From: Chitinophaga pinensis
GTDB taxonomy: Bacteria > Bacteroidota > Bacteroidia > 2-12-FULL-35-15
Direction of reading: 5' to 3'
Length of the DNA stretch: 57,125 nucleotides
NCBI GenBank assembly: GCA_945885475.1
Contig: CAMCYR010000019.1
Coordinates: 1-57,125 of the forward strand
This document shows positions 48 through 19,945 of this stretch, piece after piece; the first letter of the stretch is position 1; each line of letters opens with the position of its first letter. Below the pieces are notes generated by a model. That model was not told where the DNA came from, ran no database searches, and was given only the letters and a program-made list of their open reading frames with translations. The position numbers and the translations under genes are program-made.

Positions 48-1478
48 ATGAGCGAGAATAAAGTAATTGATGAAAGCAAACAAGGTGAAGCCTTGATGAT
101 TGAAAAGCCAATTGTTCCAAACGGCAAAAAGCTATTTTTAGAAAGTTACGGTTGTGCGATGAATTTTTCGGACAGTGAGATTGTTGCATCCATCCTGAAG
201 GATAAAGGTTTTACAACAACAACCGACTTTAATGAAGCAGATGTTATTTTCGTAAATACGTGTGCTATCCGTGAAGGAGCAGAGCAACGCGTTAGAAAAC
301 GCTTAACGGAATATAAAAAAGCAAAAAAAACAAATCCGGATTTAATAGTTGGAGTATTGGGTTGTATGGCGGAGCGATTAAAATCCCAATTGCTTGAGCA
401 GGAAAAACTGGTAGACATTGTTGTTGGACCGGACGCATACCGCAGCTTACCTGAATTGATAGAAATTGCAGAAACGGGACAAAAGGCTGTAAATGTACTA
501 TTATCTAAAGAAGAAACGTATGCAGATATTGCGCCAGTCCGCTTAGGATCAAACGGCGTTACCGCATTTATAAGTATTACCCGAGGATGCGACAACATGT
601 GCGCTTTTTGTGTTGTCCCTTTTACACGCGGAAGAGAAAGAAGCCGTGATCCGGAGACAATAGTAAAAGAAGCTAAGGATCTTTTTGAACAAGGCTACAG
701 AGAAGTTACATTATTAGGTCAGAATGTCGATTCTTACTTGTGGACCGGAGGCGGATTGAAAAAAGAAAATATAACAGAAGAAGAATTAAAAAACGCTACT
801 ACATTTTCACAATTACTTGAAAATGTTGCATTGATCAATCCCGATTTAAGAGTGCGTTTTAGCACTTCGCATCCGAAAGACATGGTTGATGATGTGTTGC
901 ATATGATAGCGAAACACGATAACATTTGCAGTTACATTCACCTTCCTGTTCAATCGGGAAACTCACGGATATTAGAAATGATGAATCGTGGATACACGCG
1001 CGAATGGTATTTAAAAAGAATAAAAGCGATCCGTAAAATCATTCCTGATGCCGGTATTTCTATGGATATCATCAGCGGATTTTGTTCAGAAACAGAAGAA
1101 GAGCATCAGGATACCTTATCATTAATGGAAGAAGTAAAATATGATTTCGGTTACATGTTTGCCTACAGCGAACGTCCGAAAACATTGGCGGAACGGAAAT
1201 ATCCAGATGATGTTTCTGCGGAAGTAAAAAGCAGACGATTGGCAGAGATCGTTGAACTGCAATTAAAACATTCGGCATTCAGAACAAAAGAAGGAGTTGG
1301 CAAAGTTCACCGCGTTTTAGTTGAAGGAACATCAAAAAAGTCAAAAGAAGAATTATTCGGAAGAAATTCACAAAACTGTGTTGTTGTGTTTCCGAAGGAA
1401 AATTATAAAAAAGGGGACTACGTAAACGTTTTGGTAGAAAGTTGTACCGGGGGAACATTAATTGGTAAAGCTGTATAA
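48..1478 (+). CDS. miaB: tRNA-2-methylthio-N6-dimethylallyladenosine synthase MiaB
   Basis: MiaB is a cytoplasmic radical-SAM methylthiotransferase that adds the 2-methylthio group to i6A37 of tRNAs reading UNN codons. All three domains are visible. The N-terminal MTTase domain has cluster ligands Cys36, Cys72 and Cys106. The radical SAM domain has CDNMCAFC with Cys181, Cys185 and Cys188. A C-terminal TRAM-like part starts near residue 405. The length of 476 residues is normal for Bacteroidota MiaB, which has a short N-terminal extension before the [11 protein letters not shown] motif. The ATG lies 19 nt after a TAnnTTTG box. The next gene starts only 3 nt after the stop, so miaB opens an operon. 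The [16 protein letters not shown] stretch fits MiaB better than MtaB or RimO. Confidence 0.96.
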
Positions 1479-1481
1479 GAA

Positions 1482-2714
1482 ATGACCATTCAGGAAATAA
1501 AAAATCGTTTTGGAATTATAGGTGGCTCGTCTTTGCTTGACAGAGCAATTGACATCGCAAAGCAAGTTTCTCCCACAGATTTAACGGTGTTGATTACCGG
1601 AGAAAGCGGAACAGGAAAAGAAGTTTTCCCTCAGATCATTCATGCCTTGAGCGCACGAAAACATGGGCAATACATCGCTGTCAACTGCGGTGCAATTCCT
1701 GAAGGAACGATTGATTCAGAATTATTTGGACACGAAAAGGGTTCATTTACAGGAGCTCATGAAGCGCGGAAAGGTTATTTTGAAGTGGCAAATGGTGGAA
1801 CTATTTTTTTAGACGAAGTTGCAGAAATGCCTATCGCCACCCAAGCACGTTTGTTACGTGTGTTGGAAAGCGGAGAATTTATAAAAGTAGGATCATCAAA
1901 AGTATTAAAAACAGACGTTCGGGTAGTTGCTGCTACGAATGTGAATATCCAACAAGCGATTGAAAAAGGGAAATTCAGGGAAGATCTCTTTTACCGTTTA
2001 AACACGGTTCCGATCGTTGTTCCACCTTTACGGGAGCGGAAACAAGACATTCATTTATTATTTAGAAAATTTGCGGCAGATTTTTCATCAAAATACCGGA
2101 TGCCGACAATTAAATTAGATCCATCCGCAGAACAAATCCTATCCAATTATTACTGGCAGGGGAATATCAGGCAGTTGAAAAACATCACAGAACAAATTTC
2201 TGTGATAGAAAAAAACCGGGACATCACTGCAGACATCATGATAAAATATCTGCCGATTCATCAAACGGCTCAACTGCCTGTTTTAGCAAGTACATCAACG
2301 GCAAGCAACGACTTTAGCGAGCGTGATATTTTGTACAAAGTATTGTTTGATATGAAGAAGGAGATGATGGATCTGAAAAAAATTGTTGTTGATCTGATTG
2401 AGAACGACAATCAGCTGAATCAGGATTTTCCACCCGAAAATGCACAACTTATTAAAAAATTATTTCAGGATGTCGGCACACCAGAAACGGCAATTCAACT
2501 GGGATATAATACAAGTATGCCCAATATGAATTCACAAAACCAAATTCCGGTAATGGAGATGGTTGAAGAAACCTTATCGCTTCATGAAATTGAAGAAGAT
2601 ATGATCAAAAAAGCATTGACAAAACACAAAGGAAAACGTAAAAATGCCGCAAAAGAATTGGGAATCTCAGAACGGACATTGTATCGTAAGATCAATGAAT
2701 ACGGAATAAAATAA
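1482..2714 (+). CDS. sigma-54-dependent transcriptional activator without receiver domain
   Basis: This protein is an enhancer-binding activator that would remodel RNA polymerase carrying sigma-54 (RpoN). An AAA+ domain begins almost at the N-terminus: Walker A GESGTGK at residues 40-46, the sigma-54 contact loop GSFTGA at 87-92 (consensus GAFTGA), Walker B GTIFLDE at 106-112, and the arginine-finger segment FREDLFYRLN. A variable linker covers about residues 250-360. A Fis-type helix-turn-helix at about 375-410 contains AAKELGISERTLYRKI. No receiver or other sensor domain precedes the ATPase, so the input signal is unknown. It lies 3 nt after miaB and ahead of lptE and secG, a gene order I recall as common in Bacteroidota. 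Its target promoters cannot be told from this window. Confidence 0.9.
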   Translation: MTIQEIKNRFGIIGGSSLLDRAIDIAKQVSPTDLTVLITGESGTGKEVFPQIIHALSARKHGQYIAVNCGAIPEGTIDSELFGHEKGSFTGAHEARKGYFEVANGGTIFLDEVAEMPIATQARLLRVLESGEFIKVGSSKVLKTDVRVVAATNVNIQQAIEKGKFREDLFYRLNTVPIVVPPLRERKQDIHLLFRKFAADFSSKYRMPTIKLDPSAEQILSNYYWQGNIRQLKNITEQISVIEKNRDITADIMIKYLPIHQTAQLPVLASTSTASNDFSERDILYKVLFDMKKEMMDLKKIVVDLIENDNQLNQDFPPENAQLIKKLFQDVGTPETAIQLGYNTSMPNMNSQNQIPVMEMVEETLSLHEIEEDMIKKALTKHKGKRKNAAKELGISERTLYRKINEYGIK

Positions 2715-14487: not shown

Positions 14488-15597
14488 TTACCTTTTTCTA
14501 TTTATCAAACTAAATACTTCATTCGCAATAACATTTGCAGAATCCTGAAATGCCAGCTTTCCTATATTTTCTGACAACTTAAAACATTGTTCTTCATTAT
14601 TTATTAGAGCAGTTGTCAGTTCACACAATTTTTCACGTGCATCAACATCCTTAATAATAAGTGCCGCATTATGTGTAACCAAGGCCATTGCATTTTTTGT
14701 CTGATGGTCTTCAGCAACATTTGGCGATGGAATTAAAATGCAAGGTTTCTTAACTAAGCACAACTCAGAAACGGAGCTAGCCCCAGCTCTTGAAACAACT
14801 AGATCAGCTACTGCGTAAGCGTAGTCCATTTTTTGAATAAAATCAAAAGCCTTTAAGCCATTCTTTTCAAATTTTGAAATGGCTAGTTTCGCGGTTTCAT
14901 AAAATCCCTTTCCTGTTTGCCAGATTAATTGAATATTATTTTTTTCAAATGCTTCCAAGCAATTAATAATACTTTCGTTTACAGTTCTTGCACCTAAACT
15001 ACCCCCGATTACGAGTATTGTTCTCTTATTATTATTCAATCCAAAATATTCAAGTCCTCTTTCTTTTTTACCGTCCAGCGATAAAATATCTTGACGAACA
15101 GGATTACCTGTTAGCAGAATTTTTTCTTTAGGAAAATACTTTTCCATTCCACTGTATGCAACACAAATACGATCTACTTTTTTAGAAAGAATTTTATTCG
15201 TTATTCCCGGATATGAATTCTGTTCCTGCACAAGTGTTACAACACCATTTTGTGCAGCAACCTGCAGCATAGGCCCGCTAGCAAAACCACCAGTACCGAT
15301 AACAGCATCCGGCTTAAACAATTTTAATATTTTTTTTGCTTTGATCAAACTAGTGATCACTTTAAAAGGGAAAGCTAAATTTGACAGCGATAATTTTCTT
15401 TGAAAACCTGAGATCCAAAGGCCTTCTATTTTAAAACCTGCAGCCGGAACTTTTTCCATTTCCATTTTACCTTCCGCACCAACAAAAAGAAATTCGGTAT
15501 CGGGACGTAAACTTCTTATGGCATTGGCAATCGCGATAGCTGGAAAAATATGTCCACCAGTTCCTCCTCCACTAATAATTATTTTAAGTGGTTGCAA
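14488..15597 (-). CDS. murG: UDP-GlcNAc lipid I transferase MurG
   Basis: MurG is a GT28-family glycosyltransferase at the inner face of the inner membrane that turns lipid I into lipid II. The N-terminal glycine loop GGGTGGH is at residues 10-16 and GTGGFASGP lies near residue 100. The C-terminal UDP-GlcNAc site includes IGGSLGARTVNE and VSRAGASSVSEL, followed by IPSPNVAEDHQTKNA. The length of 369 residues is normal. Its first 14 nt overlap the end of ftsW, suggesting translational coupling. Confidence 0.97.
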   Translation of the reverse strand: MQPLKIIISGGGTGGHIFPAIAIANAIRSLRPDTEFLFVGAEGKMEMEKVPAAGFKIEGLWISGFQRKLSLSNLAFPFKVITSLIKAKKILKLFKPDAVIGTGGFASGPMLQVAAQNGVVTLVQEQNSYPGITNKILSKKVDRICVAYSGMEKYFPKEKILLTGNPVRQDILSLDGKKERGLEYFGLNNNKRTILVIGGSLGARTVNESIINCLEAFEKNNIQLIWQTGKGFYETAKLAISKFEKNGLKAFDFIQKMDYAYAVADLVVSRAGASSVSELCLVKKPCILIPSPNVAEDHQTKNAMALVTHNAALIIKDVDAREKLCELTTALINNEEQCFKLSENIGKLAFQDSANVIANEVFSLINRKR

Positions 15598-16732
15598 ATT
15601 CCCCTCCTTCCATTTTTACTTCTGTTTCACGGCTAACACTTAAAATAATTCCAAGAGAAATACTGGTAAACCAAATAGATGTTCCTCCCATACTTATTAA
15701 GGGCAAAGGCTGGCCGGTTACCGGGAATAAATTCACTGCAACAGCCATGTTGATCATTGCCTGAAAAACCAGGCTGAATGTAAGTCCGATTGCCAACAGA
15801 CTACCGAATGTGCGTTCACTGTTATTTGCAATTCTAACACCTCGAAAAAGCAATACAACATAAAGGAAAATAATAATAATGGCGGTAATGATTCCCCATT
15901 CTTCAATCAAGATCGCAAAAATAAAATCCGAAGATGCTTGCGGCAAAAAATTCCGAGAAATACTATTCCCCGGACCTTGAGGCACGATACCTCTGGCAAT
16001 AGCAATCTTAGCTTGCTCCGCCTGAAAATTACTTTCGCTATCCCCTTTGCTGAAATTTTCGATACGAGCTTTCCACGTTCTACCACGAGGAATTGCATCG
16101 GGGAAGTTCCAAACTATCATCACAAGAAAGGCAATAAAAATAACACCCGATCCGATCAGTAGCCATAAATGCTTTGCATTCATCCTTCCAACAAACATTA
16201 AAACCAGACACGTTAAAAATAATAAAGCCGCTGTAGAAAAATTCGCAGGAAAAATTAATGCACAAATAATAACGATAGGAGTAATTACAGGTAAAAAACC
16301 TTGTTTGAAATCTTTGATAACATCTTGTTTTATCGATAGAATTCGAGCAACATAAGCAATGAGGGCCAATTTTGCGAAATCGGAAGTTTGAAACGTCAAT
16401 GATGTTCCGGGTATTGGTAACCAACGGGAAGCATCCCCAGAACTTACACCTTTAAACAAGGTATACAACAATAGTGGAGCGGCCAAAATAACTGCTATTT
16501 GAGATATCCTGGAAAAATACGTATACTTTATTTTGTGAATAAGATACATCAAACAGATTCCAGAGGAAACGATAAAAATATGTTTGGTCAGATAGTAACT
16601 TGTATCGCCATTTTTGTAGCGGTATGCTAAAGCAACAACTGAACTATAAACCACCAAAATGGATAACAATGAAAGTAGCAGCACTACTGTCCAAATTACC
16701 TTATCACCTTTTATGTATTTAAGTAAGTTCAT
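15584..16732 (-). CDS. ftsW: septal peptidoglycan polymerase FtsW
   Basis: FtsW is a SEDS-family membrane glycosyltransferase that polymerises lipid II at the septum with its partner FtsI. About ten hydrophobic helices can be seen. The SEDS signature region includes PGTSLTFQTSDFAKLALI near residue 110, the long extracytoplasmic loop with the segment WKARIENFSKGDSESNFQ, and PVTGQPLPLISMGGTS near residue 340. The protein has 382 residues. It lies between the free-standing MurD-C gene and murG and overlaps murG by 14 nt. FtsI is encoded upstream in the same cluster. Confidence 0.95.
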   Translation of the reverse strand: MNLLKYIKGDKVIWTVVLLLSLLSILVVYSSVVALAYRYKNGDTSYYLTKHIFIVSSGICLMYLIHKIKYTYFSRISQIAVILAAPLLLYTLFKGVSSGDASRWLPIPGTSLTFQTSDFAKLALIAYVARILSIKQDVIKDFKQGFLPVITPIVIICALIFPANFSTAALLFLTCLVLMFVGRMNAKHLWLLIGSGVIFIAFLVMIVWNFPDAIPRGRTWKARIENFSKGDSESNFQAEQAKIAIARGIVPQGPGNSISRNFLPQASSDFIFAILIEEWGIITAIIIIFLYVVLLFRGVRIANNSERTFGSLLAIGLTFSLVFQAMINMAVAVNLFPVTGQPLPLISMGGTSIWFTSISLGIILSVSRETEVKMEGGEFATT

Positions 16733-16797: not shown

Positions 16798-17304
16798 TTA
16801 GCCTTTTAATAATTTTACGATACGTTTAAATTCATTTCCACGACCTTGATAATTATCGAACAAATGAGAATTAGAGCAAGCGGGTGAAAACAACACAACA
16901 TCACCCGAAATTGCATAAGCAAAAGAAATCTGCACCGCTTCCTTTATAGTCAATGCTTTCGCGAAAAGCATTTTATGAGAAGAATAAGAATTAAGAATCT
17001 TTTCACTGGATGTCCCTAAATACACTATAGCGACAACTTTTTGTTTTACCTGTTGCGAGAGAATGGAATAATCATTGTCGCTATCCTCTCCACCAACAAT
17101 AAGAACAACCGAAGTCTTTATGGACTCCAGTGCATTACGAGTCGCAGTAAGCCGAATGGATTTCGAATCATTGATAAATGTAACAGCATTTATTTCATCT
17201 ACAAATTCCAGTTGGTGATCATCTTCAGAGGAAAGAACACGGTCACGTGATAAAAGGGACTGATTTAACTTCTCTTGATTTTTTAGTAATTTATTATTCT
17301 CCAT
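16798..17304 (-). CDS. free-standing MurD C-terminal-domain paralogue
   Basis: This 168-residue protein resembles only the C-terminal (third) domain of MurD. By eye about 60 of 137 positions match residues 310-446 of the neighbouring MurD, including FINDSK (43-48), NDYS (77-80), the GD-VL stretch and SPAC (140-143), then NY--RG and FK. The N-terminal UDP-binding domain and the central ATPase domain are absent, so it cannot be a ligase on its own. Some active-site residues differ: MurD has NDSKATN where this has NDSKSIR, and SPACASFDMFENY has become SPACSNSHLFDNY. The frame is open and well kept, which argues against a decaying fragment. It lies 37 nt after murD and 65 nt before ftsW, consistent with an old tandem partial duplication. 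A regulatory or scaffold role is possible but unproven. Confidence 0.85.
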   Translation of the reverse strand: MENNKLLKNQEKLNQSLLSRDRVLSSEDDHQLEFVDEINAVTFINDSKSIRLTATRNALESIKTSVVLIVGGEDSDNDYSILSQQVKQKVVAIVYLGTSSEKILNSYSSHKMLFAKALTIKEAVQISFAYAISGDVVLFSPACSNSHLFDNYQGRGNEFKRIVKLLKG

Positions 17305-17341: not shown

Positions 17342-18682
17342 TTATAAAGCACGAACAGCTTGCTTAAACTGAGTACCTCTATCTTCATAATTTTCGAACA
17401 TATCAAAACTAGCACAAGCAGGCGACAACAAAACAGTATCCCCTTTTTTACCAATTTTATAGGATTGAGCGACAGCTTCTTGAGCCGACTTTGCCTCAAG
17501 AATAGTGTCAATCACTCCTGAAAAAGCCTTTATAATCTTTTTATTATCAGTACCTAAACAAATAATAGCTTTCACTTTCGACTTCACAAGATCAATCAAC
17601 ATTGAATAATCATTCCCTTTATCAACACCACCTAAGATGAGAATCACAGGATTGTTCATACTCTCCAAGGCATACCATGTAGAATTTACGTTTGTTGCTT
17701 TTGAATCGTTGATAAATTCGATTCCATGAACATTCCCTACTAATTCCAAACGATGGTCGATGTTATGAAAATCAGAAAGACTCTCGCGAATTGTTTCTTT
17801 TCTGATCTCCACGAGCTTACCTGCAACACCTGCGGCCATTGAATTGTAGGTGTTGTGTTTTCCTTGTAGTGCTAGTTCTTGTATTGTCATAAATAAGGGA
17901 TTTGTGTTAGATGTATTTATTACTATTTGGTTGTTTTCATTTACATAAGCTCCGATTTCTAATTGTCTTTTTATCGAAAAGGGAAATTGTTTTGCTTTAA
18001 TATTTTTATTTTTAATCGTATTCACTGTCACTTCATCATCAGTGCAATAAACAAATGCATCTGCTTCCGTTTGATTCTGAATGATTCTAAATTTTGACTC
18101 CGCATAATTTTCAAGTTTATAATCGTATCTATCTAAGTGATCAGGAGTGATGTTCAGCAGAATTGCGATATCTGCTTTAAACTCAAACATACCATCCAAC
18201 TGAAAACTACTTAACTCCAAAACGTAATAATCAAAGTCATTTAAAGCAACCTGCATCGCAAAACTTTTACCAACATTTCCGGCAAGCCCAACCTTTAGAC
18301 CTGCTTTTTGCATCATGTGATAAGTCAAGAGCGTTGTAGTTGTTTTTCCGTTACTCCCGGTGATACAAATCTTTTTTGCAGTTGTATATCTTCCAGCAAA
18401 TTCTATTTCAGAGATTACCGGTATACTTTTTTCATGCAAGGCTTGTATCAAAGGAGCGTTATCAGGAATGCCGGGACTTTTCACCACTTCATCGGCATTC
18501 AGAATCAGCTCAACAGTATGCTTTTCCTCTTCCCACTTAATTTCGTATTTTGAAAGAACGTCTTTATACTTATCTTTTAGTTTTCCTGTATCAGAAAGAA
18601 AAACATCAAATCCTTTTTTTAATGCCAATACCGCTGCACCAACACCACTTTCTCCTCCGCCAAGTATTACCAAGCGTTTCAT
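17342..18682 (-). CDS. murD: UDP-N-acetylmuramoyl-L-alanine--D-glutamate ligase MurD
   Basis: MurD adds D-Glu to UDP-MurNAc-L-Ala. The N-terminal motif VILGGGESGVGAA is at residues 5-17, the ATP loop GSNGKTT at 109-115, the central NITPDHLDRY near 177-186, and the C-terminal NDSKATN at 325-331, with SPACASFDMFENYEDRG near the end. The length of 446 residues is standard. The ATG abuts the mraY stop without a gap. The gene that follows it repeats its last domain. Confidence 0.97.
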   Translation of the reverse strand: MKRLVILGGGESGVGAAVLALKKGFDVFLSDTGKLKDKYKDVLSKYEIKWEEEKHTVELILNADEVVKSPGIPDNAPLIQALHEKSIPVISEIEFAGRYTTAKKICITGSNGKTTTTLLTYHMMQKAGLKVGLAGNVGKSFAMQVALNDFDYYVLELSSFQLDGMFEFKADIAILLNITPDHLDRYDYKLENYAESKFRIIQNQTEADAFVYCTDDEVTVNTIKNKNIKAKQFPFSIKRQLEIGAYVNENNQIVINTSNTNPLFMTIQELALQGKHNTYNSMAAGVAGKLVEIRKETIRESLSDFHNIDHRLELVGNVHGIEFINDSKATNVNSTWYALESMNNPVILILGGVDKGNDYSMLIDLVKSKVKAIICLGTDNKKIIKAFSGVIDTILEAKSAQEAVAQSYKIGKKGDTVLLSPACASFDMFENYEDRGTQFKQAVRAL

Positions 18683-19945
18683 CTATCTTAGTTTTAATGT
18701 TACAATCGTTAAGACAGCGAGCATAATTCCGATGATCCAAAAACGCGATACAATTTTGGATTCATGCATTCCTAATTTTTGATAGTGATGATGCAAAGGC
18801 GCCATTTTAAAAAGTCTATTTTCACGTGCGTATTCGATTCCGAAATTCTTTTTCATTCTTTTGAAATAAGCAACCTGAAGCATTACAGAAACATTTTCAA
18901 CCAGAAAAACTCCGCATAGAATTGGCACAAGCAATTCTTTACGAATCGCGATTGCAAAAACGGCTATGATTCCACCCAAGGCCAAACTGCCGGTATCGCC
19001 CATAAAAACCTGGGCAGGAAAAGAATTATACCAAAGGAAACCAACACATGCTCCAACAAATGCAGCAATAAAAATTACCAGTTCACCAGAATTGGGGATA
19101 TACATAATATTCAAATAATCAGCGAACACAGTATTGCCGGAGACATAAGCTAGGATGCCCAGAACGACACCAATAATAGCAGAAGTGCCGGTAGCCAAAC
19201 CATCTATTCCATCGGTAATATTAGCTCCATTTGAAACTGCAGTAACAATGAGGATCACAAAAGGAATAAAAATGATCCAAGCCCATTTCTCATAACCGTC
19301 TCCTAAAAACGAAAGAAGAGAGGAATAATCAAATTCATTATTTTTCACAAATGGAATCGTCGTTTTCATCGACTTTGTTGCATCTTCAGAATAAATTGCG
19401 ATTTGAGTGTTTTTTTCGGAAGTACTAATAACATCCATCGTTGGAATTTTACCAGCAAAAATTTTTTCCTTAACGACCACTTCATCATTGCAATAAAGTG
19501 TGATACCAACAATAAGTCCGATACCAATTTGTCCGAGCACTTTAAACTTTCCAGCAAGACCCGCTTTATTTTTTTTGAAAACCTTAATATAATCATCTAA
19601 AAAACCGATTGCCCCAAGCCAAACTGTAGAAAGCAGTAATAAAATAATATAAACATTATGAAGTTTCGCAAACAACAATGTTGGGACAACAATCGCTGAC
19701 AGGATAATTAATCCGCCCATAGTGGGTGTACCTTTTTTCTCTAATTGCCCGTTCAAACCAAGATCACGAACGGTTTCACCAACTTGTTTCCGATGAAGTA
19801 AACTGATGATTCGTTTTCCAAACACCAATGAAATCAGAAGCGATCCAATCAGAGCCATTGCAGCACGAAAAGATATATACTGAAATACACCGGCTCCCGG
19901 AACATTAAATTGTTTGTCTAAAAAATCGAATAAATAGTAGAACAT
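18683..19945 (-). CDS. mraY: phospho-MurNAc-pentapeptide transferase MraY
   Basis: MraY is an inner-membrane enzyme that moves phospho-MurNAc-pentapeptide onto undecaprenyl phosphate to make lipid I. Family motifs are [10 protein letters not shown] near residue 70, [20 protein letters not shown] near 115-135, [13 protein letters not shown] in the middle, and [11 protein letters not shown] and MAPLHHHYQ toward the end. At 420 residues it is about 60 longer than E. coli MraY. The extra part is an insert after about residue 165 (the [20 protein letters not shown] region), a feature I associate with Bacteroidota. It sits 15 nt after murE and abuts murD. Confidence 0.97.

Follow-up and report, generated by a model that had tools for sequence, protein, structure and literature searches.

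MurD, the closest described relative of the protein considered here, combines a UMA-binding N-terminal domain, an ATP-binding central domain on which most of the nucleotide site lies, and a C-terminal third domain. Arg302 in the hinge loop of MurD contacts the alpha-phosphate of ADP (PMC4816537), while D-Glu-type ligands are contacted by Lys348, Thr321, Ser415 and Phe422 (PMC3527612). Few bacterial gene groups have been studied as well as the dcw cluster, yet a stand-alone gene for the C-terminal domain of MurD, hereafter called the orphan, is widespread there in Bacteroidia. A search of the open-access literature turned up no account of a MurD-C protein that is truncated or stands alone. Both the domain and the cluster are known, and what is seen here is the domain as an independent, selected, non-ligase gene. 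The window, i.e., the whole 57,125-nucleotide stretch that was analysed, contains the orphan in the following neighbourhood:

18683 to 19945, reverse strand: mraY, upstream of murD.
17342 to 18682, reverse strand: murD, a complete three-domain ligase (TIGR01087 406 bits; all checked C-domain catalytic residues present).
16798 to 17304, reverse strand: the orphan, a stand-alone MurD C-terminal-domain gene of 168 aa (ORF, Pfam and NCBIfam profiles).
15584 to 16732, reverse strand: ftsW, the next gene after the orphan, in an order conserved in relatives.
14488 to 15597, reverse strand: murG, after ftsW.

The orphan starts with ATG and is on the same strand as the flanking murD and ftsW, and the gene order in the window is murE-mraY-murD-orphan-ftsW-murG-murC-ftsQ-ftsA, in which the last gene names were assigned from the translations by reading. 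A programmed frameshift or readthrough joining murD and the orphan was rejected, because the two frames differ, 37 bases separate the murD stop from the orphan in the window, and this spacing varies between genomes from an overlap up to 138 bases. A split MurD completed by the orphan was likewise rejected for the window, since the MurD there is itself complete. The source genome has eight Mur-ligase C domains, and the other seven lie within frames of 446 to 878 aa.

The Pfam content of the orphan was limited to Mur_ligase_C (PF02875), which scored 31.4 bits in comparison to the gathering cut-off of 28.4, and neither the N-terminal nor the central domain of MurD was found by Pfam in the 168 residues. 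The NCBIfam murD profile TIGR01087 scored 128 bits in comparison to its equivalog cut-off of 211.95, with the alignment confined to profile positions 305 to 440 of 441. The identity to the adjacent MurD was 44% over residues 28 to 166 (E 6.8e-33), and the match to a solved MurD had an E of 3.9e-18, so that the sequence match is far from chance. The window orphan is thus domain 3 of MurD alone. Its active-site positions are as follows, in E. coli numbering for MurD:

17152 to 17172, reverse strand: motif NDSKSIR (NDSKATN in MurD), with Asp317 and Lys319 kept, Thr321 changed to Ile and Asn322 to Arg.
17080 to 17082, reverse strand: Ser75, aligned with Lys348, which binds D-Glu in E. coli MurD (ligand role from PMC3527612).
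16849 to 16887, reverse strand: motif SPACSNSHLFDNY (SPACASFDMFENY in MurD), with Ser415 changed to Asn and Phe/Leu416 to Ser.

At Arg302, Asp317, Lys319, Thr321, Lys348 and Ser415, all of which were nearly invariant in 104 MurDs, the window orphan has Gln, Asp, Lys, Ile, Ser and Asn, i.e., the NDSK motif retains its Asp317 and Lys319, and the D-Glu ligands Thr321, Lys348 and Ser415 are replaced by Ile50, Ser75 and Asn145. Judged by its sequence, the orphan is not a MurD, since it fails on domain content, on the family cut-off and on the D-Glu residues; with the UMA and ATP domains missing and the D-Glu site lost, ligase activity of the window's protein is excluded by inference. The first-pass annotation, which had described a 168-residue gene between murD and ftsW encoding only the third domain of MurD and stated that it cannot ligate, is therefore borne out by the ORF map, the Pfam and NCBIfam profiles and these losses. 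Its by-eye count of about 60 of 137 positions matching the adjacent MurD agrees with the measured identity, and the motif changes it reported (ATN to SIR, and ASFDMFENY to SNSHLFDNY) are correct.

The same annotation had proposed modelling the fold, and this was done with AlphaFold2, Foldseek and VIA, the AlphaFold2 input being a shallow alignment of 17 rows from the window and related loci only. The prediction divides the protein into two parts:

17218 to 17304, reverse strand: N-terminal tail, residues 1 to 29, predicted to be disordered (pLDDT below 50).
16801 to 17217, reverse strand: folded domain, residues 30 to 168, with a predicted Mur ligase C fold (mean pLDDT 78.4, with 66 to 96 for the blocks starting at residue 31).

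The predicted fold gave a VIA Z of 15.5 to 20.7 against MurD structures. The closest solved folds were MurDs, such as 3LK7 (Foldseek E 3.2e-10; VIA Z 18.8 and rmsd 2.6 over 140 residues), followed by other Mur ligases and MurT with a VIA Z of about 12, indicating that the Mur ligase C-domain fold is kept. The tail is partly conserved in the genus, where the alignment reads KIRNYHDKLN..LLSRxRVRSSEDDH. Since a folded surface and a partly conserved tail are what remains of the ligase, protein binding is suggested.

The murD-ftsW junction was surveyed across Bacteroidota, as had also been proposed. Of 36 genus genomes, the window's own included, 14 have an intact orthologue with 52% to 79% identity at the junction; in the remaining genus genomes examined murD is followed directly by ftsW, and two of the 36, both incomplete, gave no match at all. 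The gene is missing in about half of the genus, and it is therefore not essential everywhere. In the class, stand-alone MurD-C genes were found in 64 of 296 sampled genomes and in 19 of 72 families, and the copy directly follows murD in all but two of the 64 carriers (G075 and G284), most of the fetched junctions reading murD-orphan-ftsW with short spacings. No stand-alone copy was found in 96 phylum-wide genomes outside the class, 94 of which had a match, and the orphan family is confined to Bacteroidia in this sample. The double matches in G243, G315 and G332, the last being the sole one among the 96 genomes outside the class, were set aside as apparent MurDs cut by contig ends, because the two hits were complementary domain parts with at least one at a contig start.

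Several loci depart from the common arrangement. In L150 (G311:C269, 1533-2638) murD and ftsW are separated by a tandem pair of differing orphans, and L054, L172, L173 and L174 (families f4 and f45) and L177 (f41) carry a second, more diverged orphan outside dcw besides the dcw copy, which in L173 and L174 adjoins a gene reading like aldehyde dehydrogenase. In L166 (G217:C2, about 1084-1515, reverse strand) a gene of unknown function of about 140 aa separates the orphan from ftsW, and in L012 (G031:C226, 349-1396, reverse strand) ftsW lies in two overlapping frames, by frameshift or assembly error. In G284 (L175, G284:C13; L176, G284:C12, 1767-4001, reverse strand) the sole ligase resembling MurD lies away from dcw in a fusion with a MurL-like epimerase domain, with 745 aa in view of an open frame of 885, and adjoins a gene reading like fructose-bisphosphatase; this fusion may be a shift to an L-Glu/epimerase route.

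When 80 orphans were placed in a tree with 104 MurD C-domains, a single branch with an SH-aLRT of 94 parts all orphans from all MurDs. In the smaller, rooted tree, one clade with a support of 91/86 takes in 29 of 36 orphans, that of the window among them, and neither the f9 orphans on their long branches, together with one from f73, nor those of f12 are placed in it; a clade of all orphans was not rejected by the AU test (p-AU 0.39). The window orphan, placed between murD and ftsW like the other members of the class-wide family, groups with the orphans of other families and not with its own MurD, and one old tandem duplication followed by many losses is therefore the simplest reading and appears to fit best, the placement of f9 and f12 aside. 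A recent duplication inside the genus is disfavoured by the trees and by the AU test, in which grouping the genus orphans with the genus MurDs was 48 log units worse at a borderline p-AU of 0.053. Presence and absence in the genus need three changes on the murD plus ftsW tree.

The constraint on the orphan was measured as dN/dS by the Nei-Gojobori method, and the exact ratios should be taken as rough because many of the dS values are near saturation. The dN/dS of the orphan in the genus was 0.04 to 0.10 at a dS of 0.4 to 1.6, with third positions changing most, in comparison to a tighter 0.014 to 0.046 for the MurD C-domain. It was about 0.02 to 0.06 in f4 and f10 and 0.015 to 0.03 when f4 is taken together with f12, and looser values were found for one f9 pair (0.26 to 0.27) and for dispersed f4 copies (0.12 to 0.13). 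The orphan is under purifying selection where present. The possibility that it is a decaying, functionless duplicate draws on its absence from about half of the genus and on remnants, i.e., 34 codons in the murD-ftsW gap of G019 (E 6e-12) and possibly another remnant in G010, but the frames are open throughout, the gene is conserved over 19 families, and the purifying selection refutes decay for the window's lineage, which makes this explanation highly improbable. The kept function suggested in the first-pass annotation is accordingly supported by selection and wide conservation, and of the signs it had named for decay, absence or breakage in close relatives was partly observed (about half of the genus, and at least G019), whereas a lack of purifying selection was not.

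What that function may be was approached through the residues that the orphans have kept. H301, E304, N316, S318, the SP motif and RG are fixed in orphans, and the numbers of the 80 orphans retaining the checked residues are 69 for Asp317, 63 for Ser415, 50 for Thr321, 42 for Lys319, 41 for Arg302 and 14 for Lys348, the last being the freest of these sites with a column entropy of 3.37 bits in comparison to 0.05 in MurD. The frequent retention of Asp317 and Ser415, together with that of every checked ligand residue including Lys348 in f12, would fit a ligand sensor, in which binding of a nucleotide, amino acid or Mur intermediate to the isolated domain would serve to report the status of precursor synthesis. 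This is rather unlikely, as Lys348 is kept in so few orphans and Lys319 and Arg302 in only about half, the orphans of the window's genus have mostly lost Thr321 and Lys348 and the window's own copy Ser415 as well, and the central domain, with most of the nucleotide site, is missing. Given this pattern of kept and lost residues, a D-Glu sensor would be the least likely, in this genus, of the candidate roles that the first-pass annotation had put forward (regulator, partner of Mur ligases or FtsW, sensor of Mur substrates).

The f12 orphans also bear on catalysis in trans, in which the orphan would swap with or assist the MurD C-domain, in families like f12 at least. They keep K319, T321, K348 and S415, and their dN/dS of about 0.015 to 0.027 is far below that of every f12 MurD domain (0.06 to 0.26). 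However, the f12 MurD has a complete C-domain residue set of its own, and in the window's genus the orphan is without the D-Glu ligands and the MurD C-domain is conserved more strongly than the orphan; we regard this role as distinctly unlikely. The reversed constraint, with the orphan several-fold slower than any neighbouring MurD domain, was seen at loci L048, L118, L119, L122, L123 and L131-L133. Because some families keep most catalytic residues, and f12 all that were checked, one function for all orphans is uncertain, and a ligand-binding or catalytic-assistance role may apply in f12 instead.

In a further alternative, the orphan would belong with FtsW or septal synthesis and not with MurD. 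G284 (L175) is without a canonical murD and yet has the order mraY-orphan-ftsW-murG, and in G075 (L162), where the cluster is split, murD and the orphan are on different contigs and the orphan precedes ftsW. This argument rests on two genomes only, and the G284 orphan is so diverged (branch 2.4) that it could be the remnant of a lost murD; the gene between orphan and ftsW in G217 and the five extra copies outside dcw also count against it, so that we consider it unlikely. By origin and operon, MurD is the obvious putative partner; nevertheless, the place beside murD and ftsW would follow from tandem duplication in a stable dcw cluster, and position is therefore no proof of partnership.

Our best explanation, held at slightly less than even confidence, is that an old duplication gave rise to a non-catalytic protein that would regulate the steps from MurD to FtsW, or act there as an adaptor, through a putative partner. 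Through an old tandem duplication inside Bacteroidia, the end of murD, i.e., the last helix of domain 2 and domain 3, would have been copied between murD and ftsW, and the copy would have lost the D-Glu site to become a small non-catalytic protein retaining the Mur C-domain fold. Probably made together with MurD and FtsW, the orphan would act as a protein-binding module that docks in trans on MurD, another Mur ligase or the machinery of MurG and FtsW. Its retained core and hinge-side residues would provide the contact, and the cytoplasmic steps supplying FtsW with lipid II may in this way be adjusted or localised. Tentatively, and with somewhat less assurance, we suggest that this is an undescribed dcw gene of Bacteroidia, a selected non-catalytic paralogue of the MurD C-domain in about 19 families that would serve as an in-trans subunit or regulator linking Mur ligases to MurG/FtsW. 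Should the orphan turn out to control or scaffold MurD or FtsW, it would reveal in what way precursor supply is coupled to septal synthesis in the class, and a Mur C-domain isolated by nature would be available for work on an antibiotic target. The contrast between families, with the D-Glu site lost in the window's genus and fully kept and hyper-conserved in f12, provides a ready comparative test.

Among the described systems, the assembly of Mur enzymes on MurG in Bordetella (PMC6420597) makes an adaptor in the pathway plausible. The likeness is that the Mur steps of the cytoplasm can come together physically near the membrane; the difference is that MurG itself is the scaffold there, without any stand-alone C-domain protein. 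PAP11, a MurE-like component of the RNA polymerase complex in plastids (PMC9456514), is a Mur ligase homologue serving as a stable complex subunit, and provides a precedent for a structural role by analogy only, being MurE-like, acting in chloroplast transcription and unrelated to the orphan in place or function. With MurD (E. coli 1UAG, S. agalactiae 3LK7) the orphan shares the domain-3 sequence (44% to its own MurD), the fold and the gene neighbourhood, and it differs in being without domains 1 and 2, in having lost the D-Glu ligands and in scoring below the family cut-off. Similar to other PF02875 proteins (MurC-F, Mpl, FolC, cyanophycin synthetase and MurT), it passes the Pfam cut-off, with a VIA Z of about 12 to the C-domains of MurC, Mpl and MurT; the difference is that in those proteins the domain is one part of an ATP-dependent enzyme, while in the orphan it is the entire protein.
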